From assembly GCF_000279145.1 (NCBI RefSeq), contig NC_018178.1:2861688-2925687 (forward strand): DNA of 64,000 nucleotides. Reading direction: 5' to 3'. Position 1 is the first letter of the stretch. Every line of letters begins with the position of its first letter. Made by a program: the position numbers and the translations under genes. Below are positions 38,701 through 54,377 of this stretch, one piece after another. The notes below the pieces were generated by a model, which worked only from the letters and a program-made list of their open reading frames with translations, did not search any database and was not told where the DNA came from. The DNA is from Melioribacter roseus P3M-2 (GTDB taxonomy: Bacteria > Bacteroidota > Ignavibacteria > Ignavibacteriales > Melioribacteraceae).

Positions 38701-39606
38701 AATTAATTTTATGAAGTCGTTGGGGTAGAGGAGAGAGTTTGTTTTGAAAGCCGAAGTCTTTTCGCTCGTTTTCGACAAATCGGGCAGAGCGATTTTATTT
38801 TCGTTTGTAAGCTTGAGCGACGGTTCTTCTTCGTAATCTTCCGTTTCCATGAATTTTATCAGTGCGTTATAAATAAAGTTGAATTTCTTGTTTTTGGCAA
38901 ACTTGTCTTTTAGTTTATCCGCTTTGCGAAAAGCGGGCAGATACTGAAACAGATAATACATCGATTCAATATTTATCAATTCAGCTTCGTCGCGGTAATA
39001 TTCCGAATGCTGAAGTAACTTTTCCGAAACGAGCAGTGCGAACCAGTATTCTTTTTTATTAATAGCGTCGGATGCAAGTCCGAGAATTTTCTCGGAATCC
39101 TTTTTCCCGATTTTTTTATCGATATCCGAAATAAGTACGGCTTGCTCGAGCAGGGTTTTCAAATAGCTCAACTTTGCGTTGTCATCAGCGCGCAGGAAGG
39201 GGGATCTGTTCAAAAGATCAAGCGCTTCCTTGTATTTTTTCAACCCCGCCAACGATCTTATTTTCGTAGACAGCGTCCATTTCAATAAATTAAGTTCATT
39301 GTCAATCGACTTATTAATATCGGCGAGAGCTCCTTCATAAATACACATACGAGAAAGGAGATAAGCCCTGTGGAATCGGATACGGGAAGAATCGCTGTCG
39401 AGTTCAACGGCTAAATTTGCGTAATCGAGGGCTTTTGTCGGATTGCCGTTTTCGAGATAAGCCCATGCTAGCGATATAATTGCTTCCGGATCGTTCGGAC
39501 GGAGCGAATATAATTTTTCGGCTGCAGTAAGGGCTAAACGGTATCTGCCATTCCACAAATGTTCGTATATTTCGGATTGAAGATTATTTAAATCTTCGTT
39601 CATCAT
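35728..39606 (-). CDS. TPR protein with three CbbX/SpoVK-like AAA+ domains
   Basis: A 1292-residue protein. The N-terminal third (1-280) is TPR-like with repeats such as A-L-D-Y-A-N-L-A-V-E. A beta-rich module (about 290-430) and a Lys/Glu linker follow. Then come three AAA+ domains of the CbbX/SpoVK/EccA class with Walker A G-N-P-G-T-G-K-T near residues 502 and 789 and G-N-D-G-T-G-K-T near 1075. Domains 1 and 2 have intact L-F-I-D-E-A Walker B motifs and the N-P-G-L-x-S-R-F arginine element. Domain 3 has L-M-I-D-N-F (Asn1142 for the catalytic Glu) and N-P-D-L-S-A-Y-F (Tyr1194 for the Arg), so it probably binds but does not hydrolyse ATP. Related proteins remodel other proteins. No target gene is adjacent. 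Confidence 0.85.
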   Translation of the reverse strand: MMNEDLNNLQSEIYEHLWNGRYRLALTAAEKLYSLRPNDPEAIISLAWAYLENGNPTKALDYANLAVELDSDSSRIRFHRAYLLSRMCIYEGALADINKSIDNELNLLKWTLSTKIRSLAGLKKYKEALDLLNRSPFLRADDNAKLSYLKTLLEQAVLISDIDKKIGKKDSEKILGLASDAINKKEYWFALLVSEKLLQHSEYYRDEAELINIESMYYLFQYLPAFRKADKLKDKFAKNKKFNFIYNALIKFMETEDYEEEPSLKLTNENKIALPDLSKTSEKTSAFKTNSLLYPNDFIKLISIKIFDPERESKTKVREYYKQIDKRCNWISVEVIFDNPEFNIKDGEYNCKIVAYIDDMEAGITNFKLNVPKEWDSVIFTQNIGSDLPGFWKKGQGKLELYVNEFKVGEKYFGINDFYIKEKEEKHEEKRKIIKTKERENIVKPPDDKSLEELLEELDSFIGLKNIKQTVRDFITYLEFIKERKKYGLKSEENIAINAVFLGNPGTGKTTIARLIGNILRAMGILPSGHVVEVDRAALVGQYIGETAQKTEKVIQDALGGVLFIDEAYTLIKKSGSAQDFGQEAVDILLKRMEDKKGEFVVIAAGYPEEMNNFLESNPGLKSRFTHTFVFEDYTPDELVEIFKMSAKSEDYRLDKEAEEFLNKELINLYRNRDKSFGNARLIKKILDESKLNLSKRILSLPDSERSKEKLTTITVSDIQNVFKPEKGKSYKTPINEELLSEALDELDNLVGLAGVKKEINELVKLARFFAEEGENLTEKFSDHYLFLGNPGTGKTTVARLFSKIFSALGILSKGHLVETDRQGLVAGYVGQTAEKTKAVIDKAIGGTLFIDEAYALTKSGGSNSDFGREAIDILLKRMEDDRGKFIVIAAGYTEEMKQFVYSNPGLESRFTKSIVFEDYTPDEMMEIIKRALSSDNKKLAPDAEEALLSYFRDLYKHRDRKFGNARIVRNLLERLKKKLLLRIADIDPKDRTEDVMNTIILEDINEVTGIIYNAREYRVKGDPLKLQEYMDELNSLVGLENVKEGILKLISGSKIAQLKREKGLHVIEKNLNTIFIGNDGTGKTTVAKLFGNILRELGILSKGHLVKVERADLVRNFQDSTQLRAEELIKDSLGGILMIDNFSTLFTEDFGKEAFDAILNGITRHKNKFVVILADNFEAATSVIEKNPDLSAYFSQALYFEDYTPRQLLAVAYYIADKHGYLLDEGALQMLLEIFNELYEKRDVNFRNAMTARNILYTAISNQENRIASLINPSDEDLKTIRLEDVQKIKF

Positions 39607-40388: not shown

Positions 40389-40747
40389 TTCTAATAAATG
40401 CATAAATCTGCCGGATCTACCCTTAAGTTAGATAAAAGGATATTCTCTGAATTTTTTAATCAGACTTTACTTATCCGAAATTCTCTCCAATCTGGATCAG
40501 GAGGACTAAAACCTTTTCGAAGCCCTCATTACCGCCTCGTAACAACTTCTTAAATAGCATAATACGACCCAATATACTTTATAATATTAGAATTCGTTTT
40601 TTTACTTTTCTCACTGTTAGGAAAGATTTAAGTAAAAAACGGATATAAGCCTCATTTTTTACGTAATAAATAAGTCATTGCTGTCCTTATTTTTTGGCAT
40701 ATTATCTGTATATAATTAATAACCTAAATAAATAAGAGAAGAATGAT
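40389..40747 (+). other. 360-base intergenic region upstream of the hydrogenase locus
   Basis: This is the only gene-free stretch above 300 bases. It is AT-rich and holds one uninterrupted 51-codon frame (40398-40553, ATG to TAA) that has no ribosome site and a composition unlike its neighbours, so I do not call it a gene. An isolated AGGAGG sits at 40498-40503 without a start codon at proper distance. No tRNA, known riboswitch or clear terminator is visible. The last 70 bases carry the promoter-like elements listed separately. Confidence 0.5.
40695..40716 (+). promoter_or_regulatory. Candidate promoter of the hydrogenase operon
   Basis: A consensus -10 box TATAAT lies at 40711-40716, 31 bases before the ATG, but no good -35 is found 17 bases upstream (ATTTTT). 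Overlapping it, TTGGCA (40694-40699) followed after ten bases by TGTA partly matches a sigma-54 element (TTGGCAC-N5-TTGCA), though the essential GC is GT. Either an activator-dependent sigma-70 promoter or a weak sigma-54 promoter is possible. Confidence 0.3.
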
Positions 40748-41218
40748 ATGGATGGCAATATTTTTCAGCAATATCCTAAAAACGACCGTAGTAATTTAAT
40801 AGCCATGCTTCAGGATATCCAGGAAGTTCACGGTTATTTACCCGAAAAAGAAATACGTAAAGTTGCCGACCATCTCGGAATGTCGTTGAGCGGCGTCTAC
40901 GGCGTAGCCACGTTTTACAATCAATTCCGTCTGACTCCGCTGGGAAAGAATATTATCAGAGTATGCCGGGGCACGGCATGCCACGTAAAAAATTCCGCCA
41001 ATATTTTAATGGCTCTCGAAAACGAATTGGGAATTTGCGCAGGTCAAACTACGCGCGATAAATTATTTACTCTCGAAACTGTCGCATGCATTGGAGCCTG
41101 CAGTATTGCGCCCGTAATTAATATAAACGACGATTATTACGGACGCGTTACGGTAAAGGAAATTCCCAAAATACTCAATAAATACAAAAAACAAGAACAA
41201 GCAGTGAGCGCAGAATGA
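40748..41218 (+). CDS. hydC: NuoE-like [2Fe-2S] subunit of NAD-linked [FeFe]-hydrogenase, set 1 (HydC type)
   Basis: 156 residues, homologous to the 24-kDa subunit of complex I. An N-terminal helical part (L-I-A-M-L-Q-D-I-Q-E-V-H-G-Y-L) is followed by the thioredoxin-like domain with cluster cysteines C-R-G-T-A-C near residue 78-83 and C-I-G-A-C near 119-123. It would carry electrons between the flavin of the NuoF-like subunit and the rest of the complex. The stop overlaps the next gene by 4 bases (ATGA). It is first of a nine-gene run that continues to 52811. Confidence 0.93.
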   Translation: MDGNIFQQYPKNDRSNLIAMLQDIQEVHGYLPEKEIRKVADHLGMSLSGVYGVATFYNQFRLTPLGKNIIRVCRGTACHVKNSANILMALENELGICAGQTTRDKLFTLETVACIGACSIAPVININDDYYGRVTVKEIPKILNKYKKQEQAVSAE

Positions 41219-43200
41219 AAAGTTTTATAGAAAAATGTTGCGACCAGTGCTGGCATTCTCCCAGTACTCCCTGCGAGCTTTTCGTAGCTTGCTCTGTCGA
41301 AGGACCTCTTTGTCATAACGACGATAAATGTAAAGAAAAATACAAAAATCTCAACGAAGCGCTTCGTTACGTGTCGACGGATATCCCTGTGATATTTATC
41401 GGCATGGGCACTTGCGGTTTGGCATCCGGCGCGGATAAAGTTAAATCCGCAATCGAAGAAGAGCTGGTCAATCAAAATATTAATGCCCTGATCGTACCGA
41501 CCGGCTGCGTCGGTTATTGCGCAAGGGAACCTATAGTCGACATTAAATTGCCCGGAGAAGACAGGATTTCTTACTGTGAAATTCAACCTAAAGACGTAAA
41601 GGATCTGATAAAAACAACGATAATCGACAAAAAAGTTTATAAGAAAAAATTACTCGGTTCCTACGGCGAAACAAAAGACGGAATTCCGAATATCGACGAA
41701 ATCCCTTTTTTCAAAAGACAGCATAAAGTAGTTCTAAAAAATTGCGGCGTAATTAATCCGAATTCGATAGACGAATATATTGCCGCGGGAGGATTCAAAG
41801 CTTTGGATAAAGCGCTCAGAATCCTCACTCCCGAAAAAGTTATCGAAGAGATAAAAGCAAGCGGTTTGAGAGGAAGGGGCGGCGGAGGTTTTCCGACCGG
41901 CATTAAATGGGAACTGGCTCATAAAAAGAAATCGGATACAAAATACATAATTTGCAACGCAGACGAGGGAGACCCCGGCGCTTTTATGGATCGTTCCGTG
42001 CTGGAAAGCGACCCCTACCGACTAATCGAAGGCATGATTATAGGAGCGTATGCAATCGGCGCTTCGTACGGATATATCTACTGTCGAGCCGAATATCCGC
42101 TTGCAATCGAAAGGCTTGAAGACGCTATTCTCAAATGCAGAGAATACGGTCTGCTCGGGAAAAATATTCTCGACAGCGATTTCGACTTCGACCTCAAAAT
42201 TAAAAAAGGAGCGGGCGCTTTCGTATGCGGCGAAGAAACCGCTCTGATAGCTTCCATCGAAGGGAAAAGAGGAATGCCGCGGCCCAGACCTCCGTATCCC
42301 GCCGACAGCGGTCTGTGGGGCAAACCTACCGTCATCAACAATGTGGAAACTTTTGCAAATGTGCCTTCAGTCATAAATATGGGTTCGGCATGGTTCGCTT
42401 CCACCGGAACAAAGACAAGCAAAGGAACAAAAGTATTTGCATTGAGCGGAAAAGTTGTAAACAGCGGTTTGGTAGAAGTTCCGATGGGCATTACTCTGCG
42501 CGAAGTGGTTTTCGATATCGGCGGAGGTATTCCCGACGATAAAAAGTTCAAAGCCGTTCAAATTGGCGGACCTTCCGGCGGCTGTTTGCCCGACTCTGTC
42601 CTCGACACGGAAGTCGATTACGAATCTTTGAAGGAAGTAGGAGCTATGATGGGTTCTGGCGGATTCGTAGTAATGGACGAAGACACATGTATGGTCGACG
42701 TCGCAAAATTCTTCCTTACATTCATTCAAAACGAATCGTGCGGCAAATGCGTCCCGTGCCGGGAAGGCACGAAAAGAATGCTCGAAATTATTGAGAGAAT
42801 TCCCGTCCGGTACGGATCCAACGGAGACAAGACAGAACAACTTCAACGGTTCAAAGGAATCATACATCTTCAGAGACTAGCCAAGGTAATTCAGGATACA
42901 TCGCTTTGCGGATTAGGACAAAGCGCTCCGAATCCGGTTTTGTCCGGTCTAAGATATTTCAGAGATGAATACGAAGAACATTTATTCGAAAGAAAATGCG
43001 GCGCCAAAGTTTGCAAGGAAATTCTAACATACGAAATCGACCCGGACGTTTGTAACGGTTGCGGCGTTTGTTTGCGTAAATGCTCCGCAGAAGCAATAAT
43101 CGGCGAAAAGAAACAACCGCATCAGATTATTCAGGTAAAATGTACAAAATGCGGGATGTGTTTCGAATCGTGCCGTTTCGACGCTATTAAAGTTAATTAA
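41215..43200 (+). CDS. hydB: NuoF-like NADH-binding subunit of [FeFe]-hydrogenase, set 1 (HydB type)
   Basis: 661 residues in four parts. First is an unusual Cys-rich N-terminus, with Cys at 8, 9, 12, 20, 26, 33 and 39. Then a thioredoxin-like ferredoxin domain (about 50-130) with C67 and G-C-V-G-Y-C (98, 102). Next is the flavin/NADH core with G-R-G-G-G-G-F-P-T near 222 and C-N-A-D-E-G-D-P-G near 244, then the 4Fe-4S motif C-G-K-C-V-P-C near 508. The C-terminal 2x[4Fe-4S] ferredoxin has C-N-G-C-G-V-C and C-T-K-C-G-M-C. This full layout is that of the HydB subunit of electron-bifurcating trimeric hydrogenases such as that of Thermotoga maritima, so bifurcation with ferredoxin and NADH is plausible but not proven. 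It lies 18 bases before hydA. Confidence 0.93.
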   Translation: MKSFIEKCCDQCWHSPSTPCELFVACSVEGPLCHNDDKCKEKYKNLNEALRYVSTDIPVIFIGMGTCGLASGADKVKSAIEEELVNQNINALIVPTGCVGYCAREPIVDIKLPGEDRISYCEIQPKDVKDLIKTTIIDKKVYKKKLLGSYGETKDGIPNIDEIPFFKRQHKVVLKNCGVINPNSIDEYIAAGGFKALDKALRILTPEKVIEEIKASGLRGRGGGGFPTGIKWELAHKKKSDTKYIICNADEGDPGAFMDRSVLESDPYRLIEGMIIGAYAIGASYGYIYCRAEYPLAIERLEDAILKCREYGLLGKNILDSDFDFDLKIKKGAGAFVCGEETALIASIEGKRGMPRPRPPYPADSGLWGKPTVINNVETFANVPSVINMGSAWFASTGTKTSKGTKVFALSGKVVNSGLVEVPMGITLREVVFDIGGGIPDDKKFKAVQIGGPSGGCLPDSVLDTEVDYESLKEVGAMMGSGGFVVMDEDTCMVDVAKFFLTFIQNESCGKCVPCREGTKRMLEIIERIPVRYGSNGDKTEQLQRFKGIIHLQRLAKVIQDTSLCGLGQSAPNPVLSGLRYFRDEYEEHLFERKCGAKVCKEILTYEIDPDVCNGCGVCLRKCSAEAIIGEKKQPHQIIQVKCTKCGMCFESCRFDAIKVN

Positions 43201-43218
43201 TTTCTAACGGAGATTAAT

Positions 43219-44949
43219 ATGATAGAATTAACAATCAACGATATAAAAGTAAAAGCCGAAGAAGGCATGACAATACTCGAAGCTGCCAAATCCGTCGGCA
43301 TTCACATCCCGACTTTATGCCACATGAAAGATCTGTTTCCTACAGGCGCCTGCAGAATCTGCGTCGTGGAAGTTGACGGGATGAGAAATCTTACTCCAAG
43401 CTGTGCATATCCCGTAACCGAAGGAATGAAAGTTCAAACGAATTCACCCAGAGTAAGAGTCGCACGTAAGACTATTGTGGAATTGCTGATAGAAAATCAT
43501 CCTCAGGATTGTTTGATTTGCGTCAGAAACAAAAATTGCGAGCTCCAGGATTTATCCGAAAGATATAACGTAAGAGAACACCGCTACGTAGGCGAAAAGA
43601 AGAATCACGCAATCGACATATCCAGTCCGTCGATGGAAAGAGACCCCGCAAAGTGTATTTTGTGCGGAAGATGCGTCAGGACATGTAACGAAATTCAAAA
43701 AATTGGAGCGATTGATTTTACGAACCGCGGTTTTAAGAGTAATGTTACTACTCCTTTCAACAAAGGACTCAATATTAGCGACTGTATTTTGTGCGGACAA
43801 TGTATTCTGGTTTGTCCGACAGCAGCCTTACGTGAAAGGAGTCACGCCAAAGAAGTTGTCAATGCGCTTAACGACAAAAAGAAATTCACGGTTGTTCAGG
43901 TGGCTCCCGCAGTCAGAGCAACTTTGGGCGAGGAATATAATCTCCCGATCGGAACCAATGTTACCGGCAAAATAATAACCGGATTGAGAAGACTCGGTTT
44001 CGATAAAGTATTCGACACGAACTTCGGCGCCGATTTGACTATTCTAGAAGAAGCCACGGAACTTATAAATCGCCTCGGCAACGGCGGAGTAACTCCGATG
44101 TTCACAAGTTGCTGCCCCGGATGGATTAAATTTGCCGAACAAAATTATCCGCATTTGCTGGAGCATCTATCCACTTGTAAATCGCCTCATGAAATGGAAG
44201 GCGCTATTATCAAATCTTATTACGCTAAAAAGATGGGACTGAATCCGGAAGATATTTTCGTAGTTTCGATAATGCCGTGTACGGTCAAGAAATTCGAAGC
44301 GAGCCGGCCTGAACTTTCGGAAGATAAAATGCCCGACGTGGATGCCGTTCTGACCACCAGGGAATTAGTCAGACTCTTCAAAGTAGCGGGCATTGATTTT
44401 AACGATTTACCTGACGACGAGTTTGATAATCCTTTGGGAGAATCGACCGGAGCTGCGGCAATCTTCGGTACAAGCGGCGGCGTTATGGAGGCTGCACTGA
44501 GAACGGCATATTTCAAACTTTCGGGCAAAGAACTCGAGAACGTGGATTTGACGAACGTGCGCGGCTTCGACGGAGTTAAGGAATTTTCGGTCGATATTAA
44601 CGGCTCTACCGTCAATGTAGCGGTCGTAAACGGCATCGGCAACGTACGCGGAATTCTCGAGCAAATCGAAAGAGGCGAATCCAAATATCATTTCATCGAA
44701 GTGATGGCCTGCCCCGGCGGATGCATAAACGGCGGCGGTCAGCCGATTCATCAAAAACCCGAAAAGGTTCAAAAACGCGCGCGAGCTCTCTATGAAATCG
44801 ACGCTAAAATGAAAAACAGAAAATCGCATGAAAATGAATCCCTCAAGAAACTCTATAATGAATTTCTGGGGGAACCGAACGGTCATCTGTCGCACGAACT
44901 GCTGCATACAACTTACGTTAACAGAAAAAATATATTAGAAGAATTATGA
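43219..44949 (+). CDS. hydA: [FeFe]-hydrogenase catalytic subunit, set 1
   Basis: 576 residues. In order: an N-terminal [2Fe-2S] plant-type domain (C34, C45, C48, C62), a His-Cys 4Fe-4S region (H94, C98, C101, C107), two 4Fe-4S motifs (C146-x2-C149-x2-C152 and C189-x2-C192-x2-C195) and then the H-cluster domain. All three H-cluster signatures are intact: T-S-C-C-P-G-W (296-302), M-P-C-T-V-K-K (352-358) and E-V-M-A-C-P-G-G-C (494-502). The C-terminal small-subunit-like segment ends G-H-L-S-H-E-L-L-H. It evolves or oxidises H2 with electrons from the two upstream subunits. It is followed after 4 bases by the sensor gene. Confidence 0.96.
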   Translation: MIELTINDIKVKAEEGMTILEAAKSVGIHIPTLCHMKDLFPTGACRICVVEVDGMRNLTPSCAYPVTEGMKVQTNSPRVRVARKTIVELLIENHPQDCLICVRNKNCELQDLSERYNVREHRYVGEKKNHAIDISSPSMERDPAKCILCGRCVRTCNEIQKIGAIDFTNRGFKSNVTTPFNKGLNISDCILCGQCILVCPTAALRERSHAKEVVNALNDKKKFTVVQVAPAVRATLGEEYNLPIGTNVTGKIITGLRRLGFDKVFDTNFGADLTILEEATELINRLGNGGVTPMFTSCCPGWIKFAEQNYPHLLEHLSTCKSPHEMEGAIIKSYYAKKMGLNPEDIFVVSIMPCTVKKFEASRPELSEDKMPDVDAVLTTRELVRLFKVAGIDFNDLPDDEFDNPLGESTGAAAIFGTSGGVMEAALRTAYFKLSGKELENVDLTNVRGFDGVKEFSVDINGSTVNVAVVNGIGNVRGILEQIERGESKYHFIEVMACPGGCINGGGQPIHQKPEKVQKRARALYEIDAKMKNRKSHENESLKKLYNEFLGEPNGHLSHELLHTTYVNRKNILEEL

Positions 44950-44953
44950 TTTG

Positions 44954-46936
44954 ATGGGAATTGTATCGACCATAGGACAACGATGCAAAAGATGTTATTC
45001 CTGCATCAGGGAATGTCCCGCCCGCGCAATACGGGTATTAAACGGACAGGCGGTTGTTATTGAAGAAAGATGCATCGTATGCGGGCATTGCGTTAAAGTA
45101 TGCTCTCAAAACGCCAAACAGGTGCTCGACGACATGGGAATAGTTTTGAATGAATTACTCCCTTCGTACGACACGTATGCAATAGTGGCTCCGTCCTTCC
45201 CGGCTTCGTTTGCCGGGGTCGAAAAGCAATTCATTACGGCGCTCAAAAAACTCGGATTCAAACACGTAAGCGAAGCGGCTTTCGGAGCAGACCTGATTAG
45301 CGATAAATATAAATCTTATATAGAAAATAATTCCGGCAAAACGATTATCAGTTCGCCGTGTCCGGCAATTTACAACTGGATTACTAAGTATTTTATAGAG
45401 ATATCCGATAACCTTGCCACGGTTGTTTCTCCGATGATAGCGATGGGAAGATTCCTTAAGAAAAATTACGGCGACGATATTAAAGTTGTCTTTATCGGTC
45501 CGTGCATCGCAAAGAAAAGCGAATACCTCGACGCCGAAGTTAACGATGCAATCGACGCCGTTCTTACTTTCAAAGAAATCAAACAAATATTCGAACAAAA
45601 AGAGATTGACCTTAATTCGCTCGAATTTTCGTCCTTCGATCCTCCTCACGCTTATATGGGAAAAGCTTATCCGCTGACGGGCGGACTTTTGAAGACCACC
45701 GATACTCACGGCGATATTCTGGAAAAGGAAATAATTGTCGTAGAAGGGAAAGATAAAGTCGAAGAAATTCTCAGCGAAATCGCCGACAAAAAGATTAAAT
45801 CGAAGTTTGTCGATATTCTGTTTTGTGAAGGCTGTATAAACGGCCCTGCCGTCGACTCCGAGTTGAATTATTATTCACGCCGTGAAAAAGTAATTTCTTT
45901 TATAGAATCCGACATCAATTCCTTCGATAAAAAAGTATGGCAAAGCACGTTGTACAACAATCGGGATATTAACCTTTCGAGAAGTTTTACCGTTAGGAAT
46001 CAACGGAGACCGACTCCGCCCGAAGAAACAATTCGAGCCATACTGGCCAAGTCGAATAAATTTACGAAATCCGACGAGCTCAATTGCGGAGCCTGCGGAT
46101 ATCCGACGTGCAGGGAATACGCGATTGCAATTGCTAAAGGTCTGGCTGAAGAAGATATGTGCCTGCCGTATTTGATCGACAAATTGGAGCAGGCGAATAA
46201 AGAAATAAGAGAAACACAGGAACAACTTGCCAACGCCGAAAAACTTGCCTCTATAGGACAATTAGCCGCGGGCGTCGCTCACGAATTGAACAACCCTCTC
46301 GGTTCAATTTTAATTTATGCTTCCATGCTGAAGAAAAAAATCGAAAGAATCGGCGGCGAGAAGCAGAGCATTGAAGACTTAAAACTCATTATCGAGGAGA
46401 CGGAAAGATGCAAGAATATCGTTTCTAATCTTTTGAATTTTGCGCGTCAAGGACGTCTTTGCCTTGAAGAAATCGAAATCAAGTCGATAATCGAATCCGT
46501 TTTCAAGCTGATTAAAATACGTCCCGAGTTTGGCAACATTGACTTGAGAATAGAGGATATGACTAACGGCGTTAAAGTTCAGGGAGATAGAGATCAGCTA
46601 AAACAGGCTTTTATGAATATTATTATTAACGCCTGCGAGGCAATGGAAAATTCAAAGGAAAAAACGCTTACAGTAGTTATAAACGCCACGGAAAATAAAA
46701 TTAAAATAATTATTCGAGATACGGGATGCGGAATTAAGCCGGAGTATCTAAATAAAATTTTTACGCCTTTCTTTACAACGAAAAAAATGGGAAAAGGAAC
46801 GGGGCTTGGTCTGGCTATTACCTACGGAATTATAAAAATGCACCGCGGAGATATTACGGTCAAAAGCAAGCCGAACGAAGGCGCAGAATTCGAAATTATT
46901 TTGCCAATCAAACAAAATTATATGATATTGAACTAA
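44954..46936 (+). CDS. Hydrogenase-like iron-sulfur sensor fused to a histidine kinase (HydS type)
   Basis: 660 residues from the ATG at 44954; a TTG at 44951 is also in frame. An N-terminal 2x[4Fe-4S] ferredoxin (C11, C14, C17, C21; C40, C43, C46, C50) precedes a shortened H-cluster-like domain. Its motifs are degenerate: S-S-P-C-P-A-I replaces T-S-C-C-P-x-W, I-G-P-C-I-A-K-K replaces M-P-C-x-x-K, and F-C-E-G-C-I-N-G-P replaces A-C-x-G-G-C. A further four-cysteine segment G-A-C-G-Y-P-T-C near residue 381, a coiled linker, HisKA (V-A-H-E-L-N-N-P-L-G) and HATPase (G-T-G-L-G-L-A) follow. Group C sensory [FeFe]-hydrogenases have similar front ends. Here the kinase is directly attached without a PAS domain. 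It likely senses H2 or redox state. Confidence 0.9.
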   Translation: MGIVSTIGQRCKRCYSCIRECPARAIRVLNGQAVVIEERCIVCGHCVKVCSQNAKQVLDDMGIVLNELLPSYDTYAIVAPSFPASFAGVEKQFITALKKLGFKHVSEAAFGADLISDKYKSYIENNSGKTIISSPCPAIYNWITKYFIEISDNLATVVSPMIAMGRFLKKNYGDDIKVVFIGPCIAKKSEYLDAEVNDAIDAVLTFKEIKQIFEQKEIDLNSLEFSSFDPPHAYMGKAYPLTGGLLKTTDTHGDILEKEIIVVEGKDKVEEILSEIADKKIKSKFVDILFCEGCINGPAVDSELNYYSRREKVISFIESDINSFDKKVWQSTLYNNRDINLSRSFTVRNQRRPTPPEETIRAILAKSNKFTKSDELNCGACGYPTCREYAIAIAKGLAEEDMCLPYLIDKLEQANKEIRETQEQLANAEKLASIGQLAAGVAHELNNPLGSILIYASMLKKKIERIGGEKQSIEDLKLIIEETERCKNIVSNLLNFARQGRLCLEEIEIKSIIESVFKLIKIRPEFGNIDLRIEDMTNGVKVQGDRDQLKQAFMNIIINACEAMENSKEKTLTVVINATENKIKIIIRDTGCGIKPEYLNKIFTPFFTTKKMGKGTGLGLAITYGIIKMHRGDITVKSKPNEGAEFEIILPIKQNYMILN

Positions 46937-46952
46937 AAAGGATGGTGTTAAA

Positions 46953-47333
46953 ATGGACGTTAAAAAAATTCTGTTGGTCGATGACGATATCGATTTACTC
47001 GAACAGAACAAAGTATTATTGGAATCCAAAGGATATAAAGTAGTAACGGCCGAAAGCGGAGCCGAAGGCTGGGAAGCCTTTCAAAAAGAAAATCCCGACG
47101 CTGCAATTATCGACTTAATAATGGAAGAGATGGATTCCGGTTTTATACTGTGTCACCGGATCAAAAAAAGCAATCCAAACGTGCCGGTTTTTATTGTTAC
47201 TTCGGCGCCTTATACAACGGGTTTTAAATTCAGCGCCTCGACAAACGAGGAGAAAGAATGGCTTAAATGCGACGGGATTTTGAATAAACCGATTGTAATT
47301 GAAGAATTGGCTGCAAAACTAAAAAATATGTGA
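46953..47333 (+). CDS. Single-domain response regulator (receiver) 1
   Basis: A 126-residue receiver with no output domain. The acidic pocket is D-D-D near residues 10-12, phospho-acceptor Asp54 (I-I-D-L-I-M-E-E), and the switch Lys sits in N-K-P-I near the C-terminus. The stretch between Asp54 and the switch carries an extra loop (T-G-F-K-F-S-A-S-T-N-E-E-K) unlike CheY. The ribosome site AAGGATGG precedes the ATG. It lies between the sensor kinase and the hybrid kinase and is probably a phosphorelay intermediate. Confidence 0.92.
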   Translation: MDVKKILLVDDDIDLLEQNKVLLESKGYKVVTAESGAEGWEAFQKENPDAAIIDLIMEEMDSGFILCHRIKKSNPNVPVFIVTSAPYTTGFKFSASTNEEKEWLKCDGILNKPIVIEELAAKLKNM

Positions 47334-47348
47334 TATATAAATTCTTTA

Positions 47349-48827
47349 ATGGATGAAAAATCCAAAATATTAATAGTCGACGACGAAAACGGACTACGAT
47401 TAGGAACGGAACGCCTTCTTAAAGAAGAAGGCTATCATGTGGAATCCGCATCGAACGGAGAAGAAGGAATACGACTCGGCAAATCCATAGAATTCGACAT
47501 TGCTATAATCGATCTTAAAATGCCCGACGTGGACGGATTGACTGTTCTAAAAGAAATTAAATCCGTCCACCCTAATACGGTATGTTTTATAGCCACTGCG
47601 TTTGCCAGTTACGACACAGCTATTGAATCCACACGACTTGGCGCATTCGGTTACATACCAAAGCCGTTCACTCCCGAAGAGCTTATTTATCAAATCGAAC
47701 AGGGGGTCAATCAACGCAAACTAATTCTGGAATCGGAGAGGCTGAAAAAAGAGCGCGAAGAAAATCTGCTCGAGCTGGCAAACGAAAAATCGCGCCTAAA
47801 TGCGATAATAAAATCAATAAACGACGGCATTCTTGTAATTAATAAAAATGCGGAACTCGTTTATTATAACTATGCAGCTCTCAAGTTTCTCGACCTTACC
47901 GAAATTGAAATCGGCAGTAAAATATTAAATATACTGCCGGAAAAAGTAGTTAAGACAATAAATAAACTATTCAATTCGGGAACATTCCATGTTAAAAGTT
48001 ATTCCCACCAGATAGAACTCAAGCCGAACAATGAACTTATTGTGGAGTTTTCTACAACGCCAATTCCGAATTCGGACGGCAGTATAGCGGGCGTTGTACT
48101 GATTATCAGCAATATTACCGAGTACAAAAAAATCGAATTGTTGAAATCACAATTCGTGTCGATGGTTGCTCACGAGTTGAAAGCGCCTCTTGCCGCTGTT
48201 CAGGGATACTTGAACATATTAATTGATAAATCGATACAACTACCGCCTGAAAAACAGGAAGAATATATAAAGCGTTCCATAACTCGTCTCAAAGGGTTAA
48301 CCGACCTTGTCAACGATCTTCTCGATATTTCAAGAATCGAATTGAACACGAAACAACGCGAAATCGAGCGCATCGATATCCGCGAGATAATCGAAAACTC
48401 AATTCAGTTTTTCGAACTCGACATTAAGAAAAAGAACATTTCGATAGAAACGCATTTCGATGAAAATCTTCCCGCAATAGACGCCGATTATAACGAAATC
48501 TCGCGGGTTGTGACGAACCTGCTGAGCAATGCAATCAAATACAATCGAACAAACGGCAAAATATTCATAGATCTCTACAAATCCCACAATTATCTTGTAT
48601 TAAAAATCGGCGATACCGGTATCGGATTGAAACCGGAAGAGAAAACAAAACTCTTCAATGAATTTTACAGAGCCAAAAACGAAATGACGCGCGATATAAG
48701 CGGCACCGGTTTGGGATTGAGTATCGTCAAAAAAATTGTCGACTCTTATCACGGTAAAATTGAAGTGGAGTCCGAATTCGGTAAAGGGACTACATTTATT
48801 ATCAATTTACCAATAAACATAAAATAA
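47349..48827 (+). CDS. Hybrid: receiver-PAS-histidine kinase
   Basis: 492 residues, cytoplasmic. An N-terminal receiver (1-120, Asp55 in I-D-L-K-M-P-D), a coiled-coil linker and a PAS domain (about 140-255: N-D-G-I-L-V-I-N-K-N-A-E-L) are followed by HisKA (V-A-H-E-L-K-A-P-L-A) and HATPase (I-G-L-K-P, G-T-G-L-G-L-S-I-V). With the receiver in front of the kinase, it could be phosphorylated by the hydrogenase-fused kinase and then relay to the second receiver. No membrane segment is present. Confidence 0.92.
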   Translation: MDEKSKILIVDDENGLRLGTERLLKEEGYHVESASNGEEGIRLGKSIEFDIAIIDLKMPDVDGLTVLKEIKSVHPNTVCFIATAFASYDTAIESTRLGAFGYIPKPFTPEELIYQIEQGVNQRKLILESERLKKEREENLLELANEKSRLNAIIKSINDGILVINKNAELVYYNYAALKFLDLTEIEIGSKILNILPEKVVKTINKLFNSGTFHVKSYSHQIELKPNNELIVEFSTTPIPNSDGSIAGVVLIISNITEYKKIELLKSQFVSMVAHELKAPLAAVQGYLNILIDKSIQLPPEKQEEYIKRSITRLKGLTDLVNDLLDISRIELNTKQREIERIDIREIIENSIQFFELDIKKKNISIETHFDENLPAIDADYNEISRVVTNLLSNAIKYNRTNGKIFIDLYKSHNYLVLKIGDTGIGLKPEEKTKLFNEFYRAKNEMTRDISGTGLGLSIVKKIVDSYHGKIEVESEFGKGTTFIINLPINIK

Positions 48828-48843
48828 CACACAGGAGTGACAT

Positions 48844-49224
48844 ATGGCTCTAATTGCAATCATCGATGATGATCCGGACATCCTCGACAGCAGCTCTATT
48901 GTGCTCAAATCGAAAGGGCATAACATCGTAACCGCCAACAATCCGCGCGACGGTTATAAAATCGTCGCAGAACAAAAACCCGATTTAATTATTCTCGACG
49001 TTATGATGGATGAGCCGGACGACGGATTCTATCTGGCTCAAAAATTCCGAAAAGAAGGTATTACTACTCCGATATTAATGTATTCTTCCGTCTCGAAAGC
49101 CACAGGTATGGAATACGACAAAAGCGAAATGGTGCCCGTAGACGACTTTGTGGAAAAACCGATTTCACCCGAAGAGTTAATTAACAAAGTCAATAATCTG
49201 TTGAAAGCAAAGGAGGTGAAATAA
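48844..49224 (+). CDS. Single-domain response regulator (receiver) 2
   Basis: A 126-residue receiver paralogous to the one at 46953. The pocket is I-D-D-D near residues 7-10, phospho-acceptor Asp52 (L-D-V-M-M-D-E-P), and V-E-K-P-I near residue 110. Like its paralog it has an inserted loop (V-S-K-A-T-G-M-E-Y-D-K). Strong AGGAGTGA ribosome site. The gene ends one base before the second NuoE-like gene and contains that gene's ribosome site (AAGGAGGTGA), so it is coupled to the second hydrogenase set. Confidence 0.92.
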   Translation: MALIAIIDDDPDILDSSSIVLKSKGHNIVTANNPRDGYKIVAEQKPDLIILDVMMDEPDDGFYLAQKFRKEGITTPILMYSSVSKATGMEYDKSEMVPVDDFVEKPISPEELINKVNNLLKAKEVK

Positions 49225-49225
49225 T

Positions 49226-50908
49226 ATGCTGGTATTAGAAAAAAACGCAATGACCGAGGAAATCGAACAACTGGTCGAAAAATACGGCCGTTCCAGGTCC
49301 TCTTTGCTTCCGATACTTCAGGATATTCAAAGGAAGCATAAATATATTCCCGACTTTGCTCAGCAGGAAGTAGCGCGCTTACTCGATATTCATCCGGTCG
49401 AAGTCTACAGTGTGATTACTTTCTATTCTTTTCTCAGCACTACTCCCAAAGGGAAATATATCGTAAGGCTTTGCCGGACAATCGCATGCGACATGCAAGG
49501 CAAAGAATCGGTAGCAAAAGCAATCGAAAGAGAACTCGGCATTAAATTCGGTCAAACTACAAAGGACAATAAATTTACTCTCGAATATGCAAATTGCGTC
49601 GGTATGTGCGATCAAGGCCCGGCTATGATTGTAAATGAAAGAGTATATACGAAATTGACGCCCGAAAAAAGCCGTCCAAATTCTAAACGAATTGAAGTGA
49701 GGTGCGCTATGGAGAAAAATGAAAGAAAAGGAATCGTACTCTTTTCCGAATATAAAAGGGGAGAGGCAATTAAAAAAGCTCTCGAAAAATCGCGCGAAGA
49801 TATTCTATTCGAACTGAGAGAATCGAAATTGAAAGGCAGGGGAGGAGCGGGTTTTCCAACGGCAACTAAATGGAATATGGTCGCCGCAGCCAAGTCGGAT
49901 AAAAAATATATTATCTGTAATGCGGACGAAGGCGAACCCGGAACTTTCAAAGACAGGGTTCTATTGATAGAATATCCCGAACTCGTTTTCGACGGTATGG
50001 TAATAGCGGGTTATACAATCGGCGCCTCGGAGGGCATTGTTTACCTGCGCGGGGAATACGAATATATGCTTAAATCTTTGCTCGATTATCTGGAGGCTAT
50101 GCGAAAAGACAATTTGCTCGGCAAAAATATTCTTGGCAAAGACGGCTTCGATTTCGATATTACAATTCGTCTGGGTTCGGGAGCTTATGTATGCGGCGAA
50201 GAAACCGCATTGATAGAATCGCTCGAAGGCAATCGCGGCGAAGCCAGGAACCGTCCGCCTTATCCGGTTAATACCGGTTACATGGGCAAACCGACGGTCG
50301 TAAATAATGTCGAAACTCTTGCGTCGGTTCCACACATAGTCCTCAAAGGTGGCGAATGGTTCAAGAAATACGGAACGGACAAATCGACGGGTTCCAAACT
50401 CTTTTCGGTTTCCGGCGACTGCGAGCGCCCCGGAGTTTATGAACTTCAATGGGGCACGACCATAAACGAGCTGCTCGAAATTGTGGGCGCAAGGGATGCA
50501 AAAGCCGTTCAGGTAGGAGGAGCTTCGGGCATATGCATACCGAAATCGCAATTCGACCGCAGCCTCGCTTATGAAGACGCCGCTACCGGCGGGTCGATTA
50601 TGATATTCGGCGAAAACAGAAATATGCTGCGCGTATTGAAAAACTTTATGGAGTTTTTCGTCGAAGAATCGTGCGGTCAGTGCACGCCCTGCCGTATCGG
50701 AAATACCAAATTGTTGGAAGGTATCGAAATGATAGAAAAAGGCGAATATACCTTTGGGTATATCAATCAATTAAAAGAATTGGGACAAACGATGAAAGTG
50801 GCTTCTAAATGCGGTCTCGGTCAGTCGAGTCCGAACGCATTTATTTCCATATTGGAAAACTTCAAAGAAGAAATCTTTAACGGAAACGGAGGTCGAAATG
50901 GAAAATAA
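49226..50908 (+). CDS. NuoE-like plus NuoF-like subunits of [FeFe]-hydrogenase set 2, apparent fusion
   Basis: The given sequence reads as one 560-residue chain. Residues 1-155 are a NuoE-like protein with C-R-T-I-A-C near 81 and C-V-G-M-C near 125. The rest is a NuoF-like core with G-R-G-G-A-G-F-P near 207, N-A-D-E-G-E-P-G near 231 and C-G-Q-C-T-P-C near 484, but no C-terminal 2x[4Fe-4S] domain. The joint (near R-P-N-S-K-R-I) looks false. If the A6 run at 49665-49670 had five A, the first part would end L-T-P-E-K-A-V-Q-I-L-N-E-L-K with a stop at 49698-49700, 157 residues against 156 in set 1. Then a separate NuoF starts at ATG 49709. I believe they are two genes. Confidence 0.88.
   Translation: MLVLEKNAMTEEIEQLVEKYGRSRSSLLPILQDIQRKHKYIPDFAQQEVARLLDIHPVEVYSVITFYSFLSTTPKGKYIVRLCRTIACDMQGKESVAKAIERELGIKFGQTTKDNKFTLEYANCVGMCDQGPAMIVNERVYTKLTPEKSRPNSKRIEVRCAMEKNERKGIVLFSEYKRGEAIKKALEKSREDILFELRESKLKGRGGAGFPTATKWNMVAAAKSDKKYIICNADEGEPGTFKDRVLLIEYPELVFDGMVIAGYTIGASEGIVYLRGEYEYMLKSLLDYLEAMRKDNLLGKNILGKDGFDFDITIRLGSGAYVCGEETALIESLEGNRGEARNRPPYPVNTGYMGKPTVVNNVETLASVPHIVLKGGEWFKKYGTDKSTGSKLFSVSGDCERPGVYELQWGTTINELLEIVGARDAKAVQVGGASGICIPKSQFDRSLAYEDAATGGSIMIFGENRNMLRVLKNFMEFFVEESCGQCTPCRIGNTKLLEGIEMIEKGEYTFGYINQLKELGQTMKVASKCGLGQSSPNAFISILENFKEEIFNGNGGRNGK
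49699..49711 (+). promoter_or_regulatory. Ribosome-binding site and start of the NuoF-like subunit inside the apparent fusion
   Basis: GAGGTG (49699-49704) lies 4 bases before an in-frame ATG at 49709-49711 that would begin a free-standing 399-residue NuoF-like protein. The TGA at 49698-49700, in the frame reached by deleting one A upstream, would be the NuoE stop. A true fusion would have no need for either element. Confidence 0.65.
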
Positions 50909-52811
50909 AGGAGATTTAAGAGCGCCCGTCAGTCAGGTTCCTCACAACGTGCCGATTCCCGAAGACACTTCAGGTATAGGCGGCACGGTTACAGTTGAAA
51001 TAAACGAAAAGAAAATTTCCGTTCCGTTAGGCACCACGATTCTCGATGCATGCAAAAAAGTCGGCATATCGATTCCCACGCTTTGCCACCACGAAGATTT
51101 ATGCATAGCAGGCGTTTGCCGTATATGCGTTGTGGAAGTGGAAGGGATGCGCACATTGCAGGCTTCTTGCTCTTTCCCGATAACTTCGCCCTTAAAAATC
51201 AAAACATCTTCGCCAATGGTGCGCAAAGCGCGTCGACATATCATTGACTTACTTTTAAGCGAGCACTACGGCGAATGCTATTCGTGTATCCGCAACGGCA
51301 ATTGCGAATTACAGAATTTAGCCAGGGAATACGGAGTCGATACGTATAATTTCGGACATATAGACAAGCCTCGTTACGATATCGACAATTCATCTTACTC
51401 GGTCGTAAGGGATATGAGCAAATGTATACTGTGCAAACGATGCGTGCGTACTTGTATCGATTTGCAGGAAGTTGGAGTCCTGGAAGCTATTGACAGAGGC
51501 GATAAAACTCATATCGGAACATTCCTCGAAAAGCCTCTGGCAGACGTAATTTGTATCAATTGCGGACAGTGTATTAACAGATGTCCCACCGCGGCGTTGC
51601 GCGCAAACGATCCGTCGGACGCAATCTGGCAAGCCATCGACGACCCGACAAAACACGTCGTCATTCAGACGGCGCCTTCTCCGCGTGCGGCAATCGGCGA
51701 GGAATTCGGACTTCCCGCCGGCACGTCTATGACAAGGGAATTAAATACTGCTTTACGACGTATCGGTTTCGATAAAGTATTCGATACCAACTTCACCGCA
51801 GACCTGACCATCATTGAAGAAGGCACAGAACTTATTCTCAGGCTTTACAATGCATTGGTAAAAAGAAAAACAGCGCTTCCTCAATTTACGTCCTGTTCTC
51901 CCGGCTGGGTAAAATTCATCGAACATTATTATCCGGAATATCTCGATAACCTGAGTTCGGCCAAATCGCCTCAGCAAATGTTCGGGGCTTTGATCAAAAC
52001 GTTTTACGCGCAGCAGGCGGGGATCGACCCGGCAAACATTGTATCGGTGGCTTTGATGCCATGTTCGGCAAAGAAGTTCGAATGCAATCGGCCGGAAATG
52101 AATTCAAGCGGATATAAAGACGTCGACTACGGTCTGACGACTCGTGAAATGGCTCGAATGATTAAAGAAGCCGGAATAAACTTGCCCGAAATGCCAAAGA
52201 GCGATTTCGATTCGCCATTCGGCGAAGCTTCGGGCGCAGGTCTGATTTTCGGCGCTACCGGCGGCGTAATGGAAGCGGCTTTAAGATCCGTGGTAGAATT
52301 CGTTACGGGAAACAAAACCGAAGATATTTTCGAAAGAGCCAACATTATTCCTCTGCGCGGATTCGAAGGCATTAAGTATATGGAAATTCCGATCGGCGAC
52401 AAAGTGGGAGAAGTGCCGGCATTAATAAAACATTTAATACCGGATTGGAACTGGCTGAAAGGGGCTACATTAAAAGTAGCGGTGGCTCACGGAACTGCAA
52501 ATGCGAAGAAAATAATGGAAGATATAAAAGCCGGCGGTAAGTTCTCCGAATGTCATTTTATCGAATTCATGGCTTGCCCCGGAGGCTGCCTCGGCGGCGG
52601 CGGTCAACCGATTCCGACAACCCCGGAAATCCGCAAGAAAAGAGCCGAAGCAATTTATGCTGAAGACGAATCACTCGAGATCAGAAAATCGCACGAAAAT
52701 CCGAATGTAATCAGGATTTACAAAGAATTTCTGACCGAAGGACCGTGCGGACATTTATCGCACAAACTTTTGCATACTCATTACGTTAAACGCGGAAGAT
52801 ATATTGCCTGA
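50898..52811 (+). CDS. hydA: [FeFe]-hydrogenase catalytic subunit, set 2, with Ser in the first H-cluster motif
   Basis: 637 residues. A 25-residue non-conserved lead precedes the [2Fe-2S] domain (C63, C74, C77, C91), the His-Cys cluster site (H123, C127, C130, C136), two 4Fe-4S motifs (C176, C179, C182; C222, C225, C229) and the H domain. L2 (M-P-C-S-A-K-K, 387-393) and L3 (E-F-M-A-C-P-G-G-C, 556-564) are intact. L1 is T-S-C-S-P-G-W (331-337): the second cysteine, normally a ligand of the H-cluster [4Fe-4S], is Ser334 (codon 51897-51899). A roughly 25-residue insert near 510-522 (D-W-N-W-L-K) is absent from set 1. It may be catalytic with a Ser ligand, altered, or regulatory. It overlaps the NuoF-like gene by 11 bases. 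Confidence 0.93.
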   Translation: MENKGDLRAPVSQVPHNVPIPEDTSGIGGTVTVEINEKKISVPLGTTILDACKKVGISIPTLCHHEDLCIAGVCRICVVEVEGMRTLQASCSFPITSPLKIKTSSPMVRKARRHIIDLLLSEHYGECYSCIRNGNCELQNLAREYGVDTYNFGHIDKPRYDIDNSSYSVVRDMSKCILCKRCVRTCIDLQEVGVLEAIDRGDKTHIGTFLEKPLADVICINCGQCINRCPTAALRANDPSDAIWQAIDDPTKHVVIQTAPSPRAAIGEEFGLPAGTSMTRELNTALRRIGFDKVFDTNFTADLTIIEEGTELILRLYNALVKRKTALPQFTSCSPGWVKFIEHYYPEYLDNLSSAKSPQQMFGALIKTFYAQQAGIDPANIVSVALMPCSAKKFECNRPEMNSSGYKDVDYGLTTREMARMIKEAGINLPEMPKSDFDSPFGEASGAGLIFGATGGVMEAALRSVVEFVTGNKTEDIFERANIIPLRGFEGIKYMEIPIGDKVGEVPALIKHLIPDWNWLKGATLKVAVAHGTANAKKIMEDIKAGGKFSECHFIEFMACPGGCLGGGGQPIPTTPEIRKKRAEAIYAEDESLEIRKSHENPNVIRIYKEFLTEGPCGHLSHKLLHTHYVKRGRYIA

Positions 52812-52819
52812 TTTAAGAT

Positions 52820-52850
52820 GCCCGTCCTTAAAAACGGACGGGCTTTTTAT
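52820..52850 (+). terminator. Rho-independent terminator of the hydrogenase locus
   Basis: GCCCGTCC (52820-52827) pairs perfectly with GGACGGGC (52836-52843), with an 8-base loop, then TTTTT-A-TTTC. It is 8 bases after the second hydrogenase stop and closes the run that began at 40748. Confidence 0.88.
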
Positions 52851-52919
52851 TTCTTTTGATTTAATTATTAATTCAATATTTTACAAAAGACTTTGACGTC
52901 ACCTTTATATTAAAATAAA

Positions 52920-54377
52920 ATGAAAGCTCTTATACCGGAATGGGCTAGAAATTACGGAGAATTCTGGAGAGCTATACGCATCAGGAATCTGTGGTTTATC
53001 AGGCTCCGTTATTTTGCCGTAATATCGCTACTGCTGTTTTTGACGGCGGGGGAATTTCTGCTGAATTTTCAGTTCAGTAATCTTCAGAAAATCTCCATAT
53101 CTATAATTACGCTTTCAATCTTTTCTTACAATATTATCCTCTATAAGCTCCGTAAATACACTACTTGCGACATATCGAGTTTCAATAGCCTCCATCTTTC
53201 TTTGATACAGATGATTCTTGACCTTACCGCTCTTATGATACTTGTTTATTATACCGGAATAATCGAATCGCCTTTATATATCTTTTTCATATTTCATATG
53301 ATTATCGGAAGTCTTATACTTCCGGCATACGTCGTATATATCATTGCTTGCCTAATTTGTCTCGTTTTGTCGGCTTTAACCTTAATGCAAAATTTCGGCA
53401 TTGTAGAGACCCATCTTATAAGCGGATTATACGACGCCAGAATTCCTCACACAATGGCTTATGATATTCTGAGTTTAATAACTTTCACCGCAATGATTTT
53501 TATAAGCGTCTATCTCGCAAATAATATCGTAAGACAGCTCTATAAACGAGAACAGCAATTGCGCGAGACCTTGCAACGTCTCGACGAAGCCGAAAAAGCA
53601 AAGCAAAGATATACTATCGGTATCATTCACGAAGTCAAGACTCCGGTAACGGCAATCAAATCAATTATCGATTTAATTCTGAACAATTATCTCGGCGACA
53701 TAAATCCTGAAATAAGAGAAAAACTAAAAAGAGCGCAAATAAGAACGGGCGAGACTTTACAACTGCTCAACAATATTTTGCGGTTATCCCGCTTAAAACT
53801 GCTCGATATCCGCTCAACGGAAGAAATCGACATTTTGGAATTGATTACCGGCTTGACAAATAAGATGGAAGAAACAATCAAAGCCAAATCGATCGATTTC
53901 AGAATCAAAGATTTAAGAAAAGAAAAGAAAATAATTAAATCGGACATTACTCTATTAGAGCTGGCGTTCTCCAATTTGATTGCAAATTCTGTCAAGTACG
54001 TAAATGAAGGAGGCGTCATTGAAATACTGCTCGATGAAAGCGAAAACAAATTACTGATCGAAATATGCGACAACGGGATCGGTATACCTAAGGAAGACCT
54101 GCCGAATATTTTCAAACAATTTTACAGAGCTTCAAATGTCAAAAGGAGCGAACACGAGGGAAGCGGGCTGGGACTCGCATTGGTAAAAGAAATTATTGAA
54201 CGACTCGGGGGAACAATTTCCGCGGAAAGCCCTTCAAGATTGGCAGGCGAAATGCCCGGTACGTGCTTCAAAGTTTCGCTCGATTATAACTTCCAACCGA
54301 AGTCTTACGATATTTTTCAGGTCAGTCCGGACAATTACTTAAATGATAAAAGTAATCTGGAGGAATATCTCGAATAA
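52920..54377 (+). CDS. Membrane-bound sensor histidine kinase
   Basis: 485 residues. About five or six hydrophobic helices between residues 28 and 205 (for example A-V-I-S-L-L-L-F-L-T near 34 and F-I-F-H-M-I-I-G near 126) form a membrane sensor with almost no periplasmic domain. A coiled coil leads to HisKA with I-G-I-I-H-E-V-K-T-P near residue 237, and an HATPase with C-D-N-G-I-G-I-P and G-S-G-L-G-L-A-L-V. No response regulator is adjacent. It follows the hydrogenase terminator by 70 bases and is probably a separate unit. The 3' end overlaps ispE by 56 bases, tail to tail. Confidence 0.92.
   Translation: MKALIPEWARNYGEFWRAIRIRNLWFIRLRYFAVISLLLFLTAGEFLLNFQFSNLQKISISIITLSIFSYNIILYKLRKYTTCDISSFNSLHLSLIQMILDLTALMILVYYTGIIESPLYIFFIFHMIIGSLILPAYVVYIIACLICLVLSALTLMQNFGIVETHLISGLYDARIPHTMAYDILSLITFTAMIFISVYLANNIVRQLYKREQQLRETLQRLDEAEKAKQRYTIGIIHEVKTPVTAIKSIIDLILNNYLGDINPEIREKLKRAQIRTGETLQLLNNILRLSRLKLLDIRSTEEIDILELITGLTNKMEETIKAKSIDFRIKDLRKEKKIIKSDITLLELAFSNLIANSVKYVNEGGVIEILLDESENKLLIEICDNGIGIPKEDLPNIFKQFYRASNVKRSEHEGSGLGLALVKEIIERLGGTISAESPSRLAGEMPGTCFKVSLDYNFQPKSYDIFQVSPDNYLNDKSNLEEYLE

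Follow-up and report, generated by a model that had tools for sequence, protein, structure and literature searches.

A sensor protein in which a group C-like [FeFe]-hydrogenase module is fused to a histidine kinase (HK) is encoded at 44954–46936 of the window, which is the whole stretch of 64,000 nucleotides of Melioribacter roseus P3M-2 DNA analysed here. The protein, identified from its open frame and Pfam matches, consists of 660 aa and, like all the features of the window described below unless otherwise stated, is encoded on the + strand. We regard it as moderately probable that this group C-like protein senses H2 or redox state, drives its own kinase directly and feeds a phosphorelay, with a sigma-54 activator as the probable regulator.

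Domain arrangement and linker of the sensor

The open frame of the sensor starts with the ATG at 44954, and a TTG lies one codon before it. The Pfam matches give a series of two [4Fe-4S] motifs, a short H-domain, a [4Fe-4S] domain with the spacing Cx2Cx4Cx16C, and HisKA/HATPase. The Fer4-type matches are confined to residues 8–54, where the first motif (C11, C14, C17 and C21; 44984–45016) and the second (C40, C43, C46 and C50; 45071–45103) are located. The H-domain (Fe_hyd_lg_C, residues 74–298, E = 2e-54; 45173–45847), which was assigned from Pfam and the fold match, covers 225 aa, whereas the Pfam matches of the window's two group A HydA proteins cover 284 and 317 aa. It is followed by the C-terminal [4Fe-4S] domain (FeS, PF04060; residues 376–405, E = 2.6e-11), whose cysteines C378, C381, C386 and C403 extend over 46085–46162. 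The kinase half consists of HisKA (residues 435–499, E = 6.4e-14; 46256–46450), with the phospho-acceptor H443 placed at 46280–46282 by Pfam and alignment, and HATPase_c (Pfam, residues 544–653, E = 5.6e-26; 46583–46912). No PAS family was found in the sensor at E ≤ 0.01, and none of its Pfam matches suggests a membrane segment. The sequence-only reading, which had described a 2x[4Fe-4S] front end, a shortened H-cluster-like domain, a four-cysteine element and then a kinase with PAS absent, is borne out by these matches.

The score of the sensor with the group A model TIGR02512 is 98.4 bits against a cut-off of 405.95, which places it outside group A. The features of group C are present: the two N-terminal [4Fe-4S] motifs, the C-terminal Cx2Cx4Cx16C, and four H-domain cysteines as putative ligands, the last pair of which is CxxC. 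The protein differs from PAS-type group C (M2f, TmHydS) in that no PAS follows the FeS domain and H443 lies 40 residues after C403, and from group D (M2e, TamHydS) in that Gly occupies the place of CpI M353, where group D has Ser or Thr. The kinase half has the features of a HisKA/HATPase sensor kinase, namely Pfam matches over the cut-off, the H-box histidine and the ATP-binding residues.

The sensor was modelled as a monomer using AlphaFold2 (mean pLDDT 87.9, pTM 0.66). In the structure comparison, residues 1–350 matched CbA5H with a Z of 41.3 over 344 residues (rmsd 2.3, 24% identity); the best CpI row had a Z of 40.1, with others down to about 32, and the kinase half matched ZraS. What this comparison shows for the model is a hydrogenase fold, not a cluster.

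C403 and H443 are 40 residues apart in 18, 47 in 35 and 54 in 1 of the 54 aligned HK-fused rows. Each of the 36 rows in which this distance is not that of the window deviates from it by a multiple of seven, whereas in nine other segments this holds for only 1 of 155 differing rows. On the quick tree, at least 6 seven-residue changes are needed among 57 HK rows. The model predicts one helix over residues 404–465 (46163–46348) that joins the last cysteine of the C-terminal cluster to the DHp domain; its block means over 421–450 are 62, 52 and 64 and therefore of low confidence. Because the linker changes in steps of seven and a single helix is modelled, the alignment and the model suggest that the linker between the FeS domain and the kinase is a coiled coil with a kept register. 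A register kept in this way would be in line with a turn or shift of the kinase helix by the FeS domain. Since the C-terminal cluster of TamHydS is not reduced by H2, according to the available text of PMC13104023, a conformational signal seems likelier by analogy than an electron hop into the C-terminal cluster.

Conservation of the cluster sites and spacing of the P3 cysteines

The alignment consists of 54 HK-fused proteins, i.e., the window and 53 relatives, several of which are near-copies, so that the row counts are not independent. The wider scan used the best 80 of 588 matches, and its phylum spread is that of these best matches, which are mostly metagenome bins. The motif filter was passed by 76 of the 80 scan loci (L096, L114, L126 and L133 failed); L093 and L124, which are cut at contig ends, were omitted from the alignment, and the tree omits L010, L052, L093 and L124.

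Sixteen cluster cysteines are invariant in the 54 rows: the eight N-terminal ones, C136, C184, C291 and C294 as putative H-cluster ligands, and the four of the C-terminal cluster. H443, N555, N559, D589, G615 and G617 are likewise invariant. The same holds for A79 P80, S159 P160, K187 K188 and E190, for which the profile alignment shows the same letters in group A. Residues of this type surround the diiron site. A statement on sensory enzymes in the accessible part of PMC10055695 agrees with such residues around that site.

The alignment places the P1 motif SSPCP, which contains C136, at 45350–45364, the P2 motif FIGPCIAKK, which contains C184, at 45491–45517, and the P3 motif ILFCEGCINGP, which contains C291 and C294, at 45815–45847. 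In the profile alignment, the changed residues are non-ligating ones, with P135, G182 and L289 at the places of CpI C299, M353 and M497, respectively. Among the 54 rows, the C299 place is occupied by D in 18, S in 12, T in 11, P in 8 and A in 5, and the M353 place by G in 54/54. As far as the texts at hand state, alteration of C299, M353 and M497 is usual in sensory [FeFe]-hydrogenases, including TmHydS and TamHydS (PMC10055695, PMC8163306), and aspartate at the C299 place is the one replacement said to preserve group A activity (PMC10055695).

It had been claimed that all three H-cluster motifs are changed and that the domain is degenerate. The altered letters SSPCP, IGPC and CEGC are indeed there; however, the four putative ligand cysteines are all present and invariant. 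The word "degenerate" is wrong, because the cysteines and the pocket-adjacent residues are invariant and the three altered positions are those usually altered in sensory enzymes.

A search of 116 related genomes, the own genome among them, gave matches with at least 56% identity over at least 398 of 409 residues in 60. Any sensor match was found in 65 of the 116 and the HK type in 60, and no internal stops were found in the matches of these 60 genomes. In one genome (G046:C11:30345-31534), the sensor match lies in two adjoining open pieces, owing to a frameshift or an assembly error.

The CxxC pair C291/C294 is present in all 54 rows. In 27 of them, the residue immediately preceding C291 is a cysteine too, so that CxxxC is available as well; the other 27, the window included, have F, A, S or L at that place and no CxxxC cysteine. 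A P3 register shift without a gap was considered for the 27 two-cysteine rows among the 54; the profile alignment instead matches C291 with the group A ligand and opens a gap of one residue, the loop being one residue shorter than CxxxC. With a CxxC pair in P3 and a proline at the C299 place, assembly of an H-cluster is not assured.

When the rows were sorted by output, the CxxC loop was found in 57/57 HK, 4/4 sigma-54 and 1/1 GGDEF rows, where CxxC took priority in the labels, so that rows with both spacings (half of the 54 rows and the GGDEF row) count as CxxC. The CxxxC loop was found in 23 rows labelled PASonly (kinase-free group C), 4 MCP rows and 2 group A rows. The label PASonly means that no kinase was found; PAS was detected by Pfam in the three that were scanned (the L006 paralogue, L060 and L123) and by phmmer in others, and was not found in L059, L142, L147, L150 and L151. 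The quick tree needs two changes of the HK output, the node of 56 HK rows having a support of only 81, and a very long branch leads to the MCP rows. Since the tree likewise needs two changes of the loop spacing, this spacing is for the most part a matter of descent and carries no information on function.

Relatives with other outputs were also observed. In L055:2001-4313(+), a relative in Ignavibacteriales, an H-domain and an FeS domain are fused to a methyl-accepting chemotaxis signalling domain (Pfam), and L056, L057 and L058, also relatives in Ignavibacteriales, are similar fusions by length and motifs; all four fit class C2 of HydDB. A hydrogenase-FeS front end continues into a sigma-54 activator that includes a DNA-binding domain in L090:2108-4318, L128:5974-8211, L138:5953-8607 and L139:5992-8613; these are one-component versions from Bacillota as named in the records, and two of them have a PAS between. 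In L132:5971-8388(+) of Desulforadius tongensis, the front end is fused to GGDEF-HD, suggesting a c-di-GMP output.

Operon context and promoter-like elements

The sensor gene is preceded by genes for a NuoE-like hydrogenase subunit (40748–41218; Pfam 2Fe-2S_thioredx), a NuoF-like subunit (41215–43200; NCBIfam profile match) and a group A6 [FeFe]-hydrogenase HydA (43219–44949; NF040763, 909 bits). It is followed by those for the single-domain receiver REC1 (46953–47333) and a REC-PAS-HisKA-HATPase hybrid (47349–48827), both Pfam assignments and recurrent neighbours, the single-domain receiver REC3 (48844–49224; Pfam), a NuoE-NuoF fusion of a second hydrogenase (49226–50908; NCBIfam profile match) and a second group A6 HydA (50898–52811; NF040763, 808 bits). 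HydG is encoded in the genome. This place between two hydrogenases, with receiver genes adjoining, supports the role of a transducer by direct kinase fusion that had been claimed. Because the order of the genes fits the published Melioribacter roseus tags, we infer that the sensor is MROS_2483. In the available text of the two papers, Mros2480-2482, 2487 (fused) and 2488 are described as hydrogenase subunits (PMC3534657), and MROS_2480-2482, 2487 and 2488 as detected under fermentative conditions only, with the sensor unnamed there (PMC5492636).

The gene immediately before the sensor gene encodes HydA in 45 of the 55 HK-fused named loci, and the one immediately after it encodes a single REC in 45 (in each case 3 not assessable and 7 without); a REC-HK hybrid is encoded close by in 46, with 6 loci not assessable and 3 lacking it. 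In L103, L110 and L118, the single receiver is upstream instead of downstream. Pfam and NCBIfam scans of window genes in the interval 40748–54377 found no DNA-binding domain; in L088, which is outside the order, a LuxR-type response regulator adjoins the operon. In a Hydrogenedentota contig, REC and REC-HK genes are flanked by two sensors that carry a kinase (L089:1961-4168 and 6148-8128), the second of which is cut by the contig end. On the − strand of the window, 35728–39606 encodes a protein of 1292 aa that, as judged by eye, has a TPR-like start and then three repeated AAA-type ATPase blocks.

Two promoter-like elements were located upstream of the operon by pattern match: an inverted repeat, TTCTCACTGTTAGGAA, as a candidate regulator site at 40608–40623, and a sigma-54-like −24/−12 element, TGGCATATTATCTG, at 40695–40708, the −12 half of which is weak (TGT, not TGC). 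The patterns were derived from 18 operons of Ignavibacteriales and tested with 23 other operons, which are themselves relatives; these remained of 32 stretches obtained after removal of 4 duplicates, 4 without detectable NuoE and 1 without upstream DNA. The element and the repeat were found in 16 and 11 of the 18 operons of the derivation set, where dinucleotide shuffles averaged 0.095 and 0.205, and in 23 and 13 of the 23 out-of-sample operons, where shuffles averaged 0.045 and 0.155, respectively. The two patterns combined match a single place in the own genome and, in a search of 66 family genomes, one place each in 22, while the reversed control gave 0/66. A looser first pattern found the same place, with one match in the reversed control. 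In eleven loci that were opened, the site precedes genes of the hydrogenase operon, the letters being judged by eye.

Six of these eleven loci (L192, L197, L198, L199, L200 and L206) come from genomes in which the promoter site is kept where a sensor match is absent (G002, G012, G023, G036, G049 and G065). A REC3-like receiver lies downstream in 5/6 of these loci and second-hydrogenase genes in 4/6, and one of them has a remnant of the REC-PAS-HK gene. The promoter site is not strictly tied to the sensor, because it is kept in these loci, with a receiver in 5/6, and this suggests that the sensor was lost there and also that the site has another user. The genome encodes RpoN and has 15 strong matches to sigma-54 activators. 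The promoter element was found in 0/26 operons outside Ignavibacteriales and was not found upstream of the operon of the own-genome PAS paralogue. No Rex or Fnr pattern was found upstream of the operon in the window; one Rex-like palindrome lies upstream in L119.

Proposed mechanism and comparison with known systems

In the mechanism proposed here, the H-domain would carry an H-cluster that reacts with H2, or that equilibrates with reduced carriers via the N-terminal [4Fe-4S] pair. The altered state or conformation of the cluster would be passed to the C-terminal [4Fe-4S] domain, in which C403 would lie at the start of the helix into DHp, and a change in the register or rotation of the coiled coil would switch the autophosphorylation of H443. 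The phosphate would then move to REC1 and the REC-PAS-HK and REC3 proteins and on to a DNA-binding regulator, which within Ignavibacteriales is probably a sigma-54 activator and would adjust the transcription of its own two-hydrogenase operon. H2 as the signal, the diiron subsite, the coiled coil, the phosphotransfer, and the target and sign of control are all proposed steps. Sensor, kinase, receivers and candidate target promoter share one operon, and therefore H2 signalling is directly testable here. The 40/47/54 spacing predicts a coiled-coil mechanism, and the CxxC loop raises the question of whether the H-cluster tolerates another cysteine spacing.

A redox or iron-sulfur sensor without the diiron subsite, in which the H-domain holds a [4Fe-4S] cluster or nothing and the kinase reports redox state or O2 instead of H2, is rather unlikely but carries real weight. 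It is consistent with CxxC in 54/54 rows, 27 of which have no CxxxC cysteine, with the one-residue gap in the profile alignment, with P and L at the C299 and M497 places of the window, and with the statement in the available text of PMC11406978 that the signature motifs are hardly found in group C1. However, the residues next to the diiron pocket are invariant, the aspartate described as activity-preserving in the part of PMC10055695 at hand occupies the C299 place in 18/54 rows, the CxxxC cysteine is also present in 27/54, and the genes lie in a hydrogenase operon. If the N-terminal [4Fe-4S] pair instead docked on ferredoxin or on HydABC, the bifurcating hydrogenase encoded next to it, the kinase would read the reduced carrier as a measure of electron flux and H2 would act indirectly; the position of the sensor directly downstream of HydA in 45/55 loci and its two intact ferredoxin motifs would fit such a role, but the invariant pocket residues of the H-domain are left unexplained by it, and we consider it improbable. 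A decayed hydrogenase left on the kinase, with no cluster-based sensing, would account for the altered P1–P3 letters. It was rejected on the conservation in the 54 aligned proteins and is barely credible, because the 16 cysteines are invariant across many phyla as named in the records and the matches at 56% or more in 60/116 related genomes contain no stops.

The H2 or redox sensor that drives its own kinase may belong to a widespread family of one-piece gas sensors, with an H-cluster on a CxxC pair, a PAS-free path to a heptad-locked kinase helix, and a phosphorelay that controls bifurcating hydrogenases, using sigma-54 in Ignavibacteriales. This wider reading is doubtful; if true, the H-cluster would have a new coordination geometry, and H2 would be linked to protein phosphorylation by an unusually short route.

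In the accessible parts of the literature, the signalling role of sensory [FeFe]-hydrogenases is termed putative and its route is unsettled. HydDB distinguishes the classes C1, histidine kinase-linked, C2, chemotactic, and C3, phosphatase-linked, all of them putative (PMC5037454, available text). Class C1 shares with the sensor a hydrogenase-like module linked to a histidine kinase, but this linkage need not mean fusion, unlike in the sensor. As far as the texts at hand state, the best C1 entry in HydDB is without a HATPase domain (PMC11406978), a C1 gene adjoining a kinase gene has been described (PMC8542988), and a Petrimonas HydA near hnd genes was assigned to C1 (PMC7768429); in group C1 of Hydrogenedentota, P1–P3 are hardly found and H2 sensing is left unsettled (PMC11406978). 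BfuT, which is called group C3, has a histidine kinase domain and occurs in sub-type IV/V clusters of Hydrogenedentota and Calditrichota (PMC11406978, 2024). Like the sensor, it is a group C protein that carries a kinase domain and whose gene accompanies those of a bifurcating HydABC; the comparison is by description, and the available text is silent on its P3 spacing, the length of its linker, REC partners and a promoter. The claim that sensory hydrogenases usually link to PAS or phosphatase modules is therefore incomplete, and HydDB C1 and BfuT rule out a novel architecture as such. The general architecture is of a known kind.

According to the same partly available sources, TmHydS (group C) shares with the sensor an H-domain with altered C299, M353 and M497 (PMC10055695), two N-terminal clusters and the C-terminal four-cysteine motif (PMC8163306); its FeS domain is followed by PAS, whereas the sensor continues into HisKA/HATPase. 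TamHydS (group D) shares the two N-terminal clusters, the H-domain, Cx2Cx4Cx16C and the absence of PAS (PMC8163306, PMC13104023); however, it has no fused kinase, its gene being flanked by that of a kinase-like ATPase, and its M353 place is Ser, compared to Gly in the sensor. The paralogue in the own genome, L006:8859-10613(-), has the same Fer4x2-H-FeS series with 41% identity over 3–407, but has a PAS ending, a separate SpoIIE gene and CRMGC as P3. It belongs to the second hydrogenase operon (L006:5506-15709; genome 710000–729900), which contains this PAS-type HydS, a SpoIIE-type phosphatase and an HATPase_c_2 gene and, as judged by eye, a Rex-like gene and HydABC-like genes. The AtoS model gives the highest score for the kinase half and ZraS one of the highest (NCBIfam, PDB), but the kinase half remains below the curated family cut-offs, and the input here is a hydrogenase module. 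Neither the CxxC spacing of P3, the seven-residue steps of the linker, the partner genes for REC and REC-HK proteins nor the promoter is mentioned in the accessible parts of the open-licence literature searched. Within the known kind of architecture, this protein is a well-defined and testable variant of the sensory hydrogenases by virtue of its re-spaced P3 cysteines and of a direct junction whose length changes in sevens.
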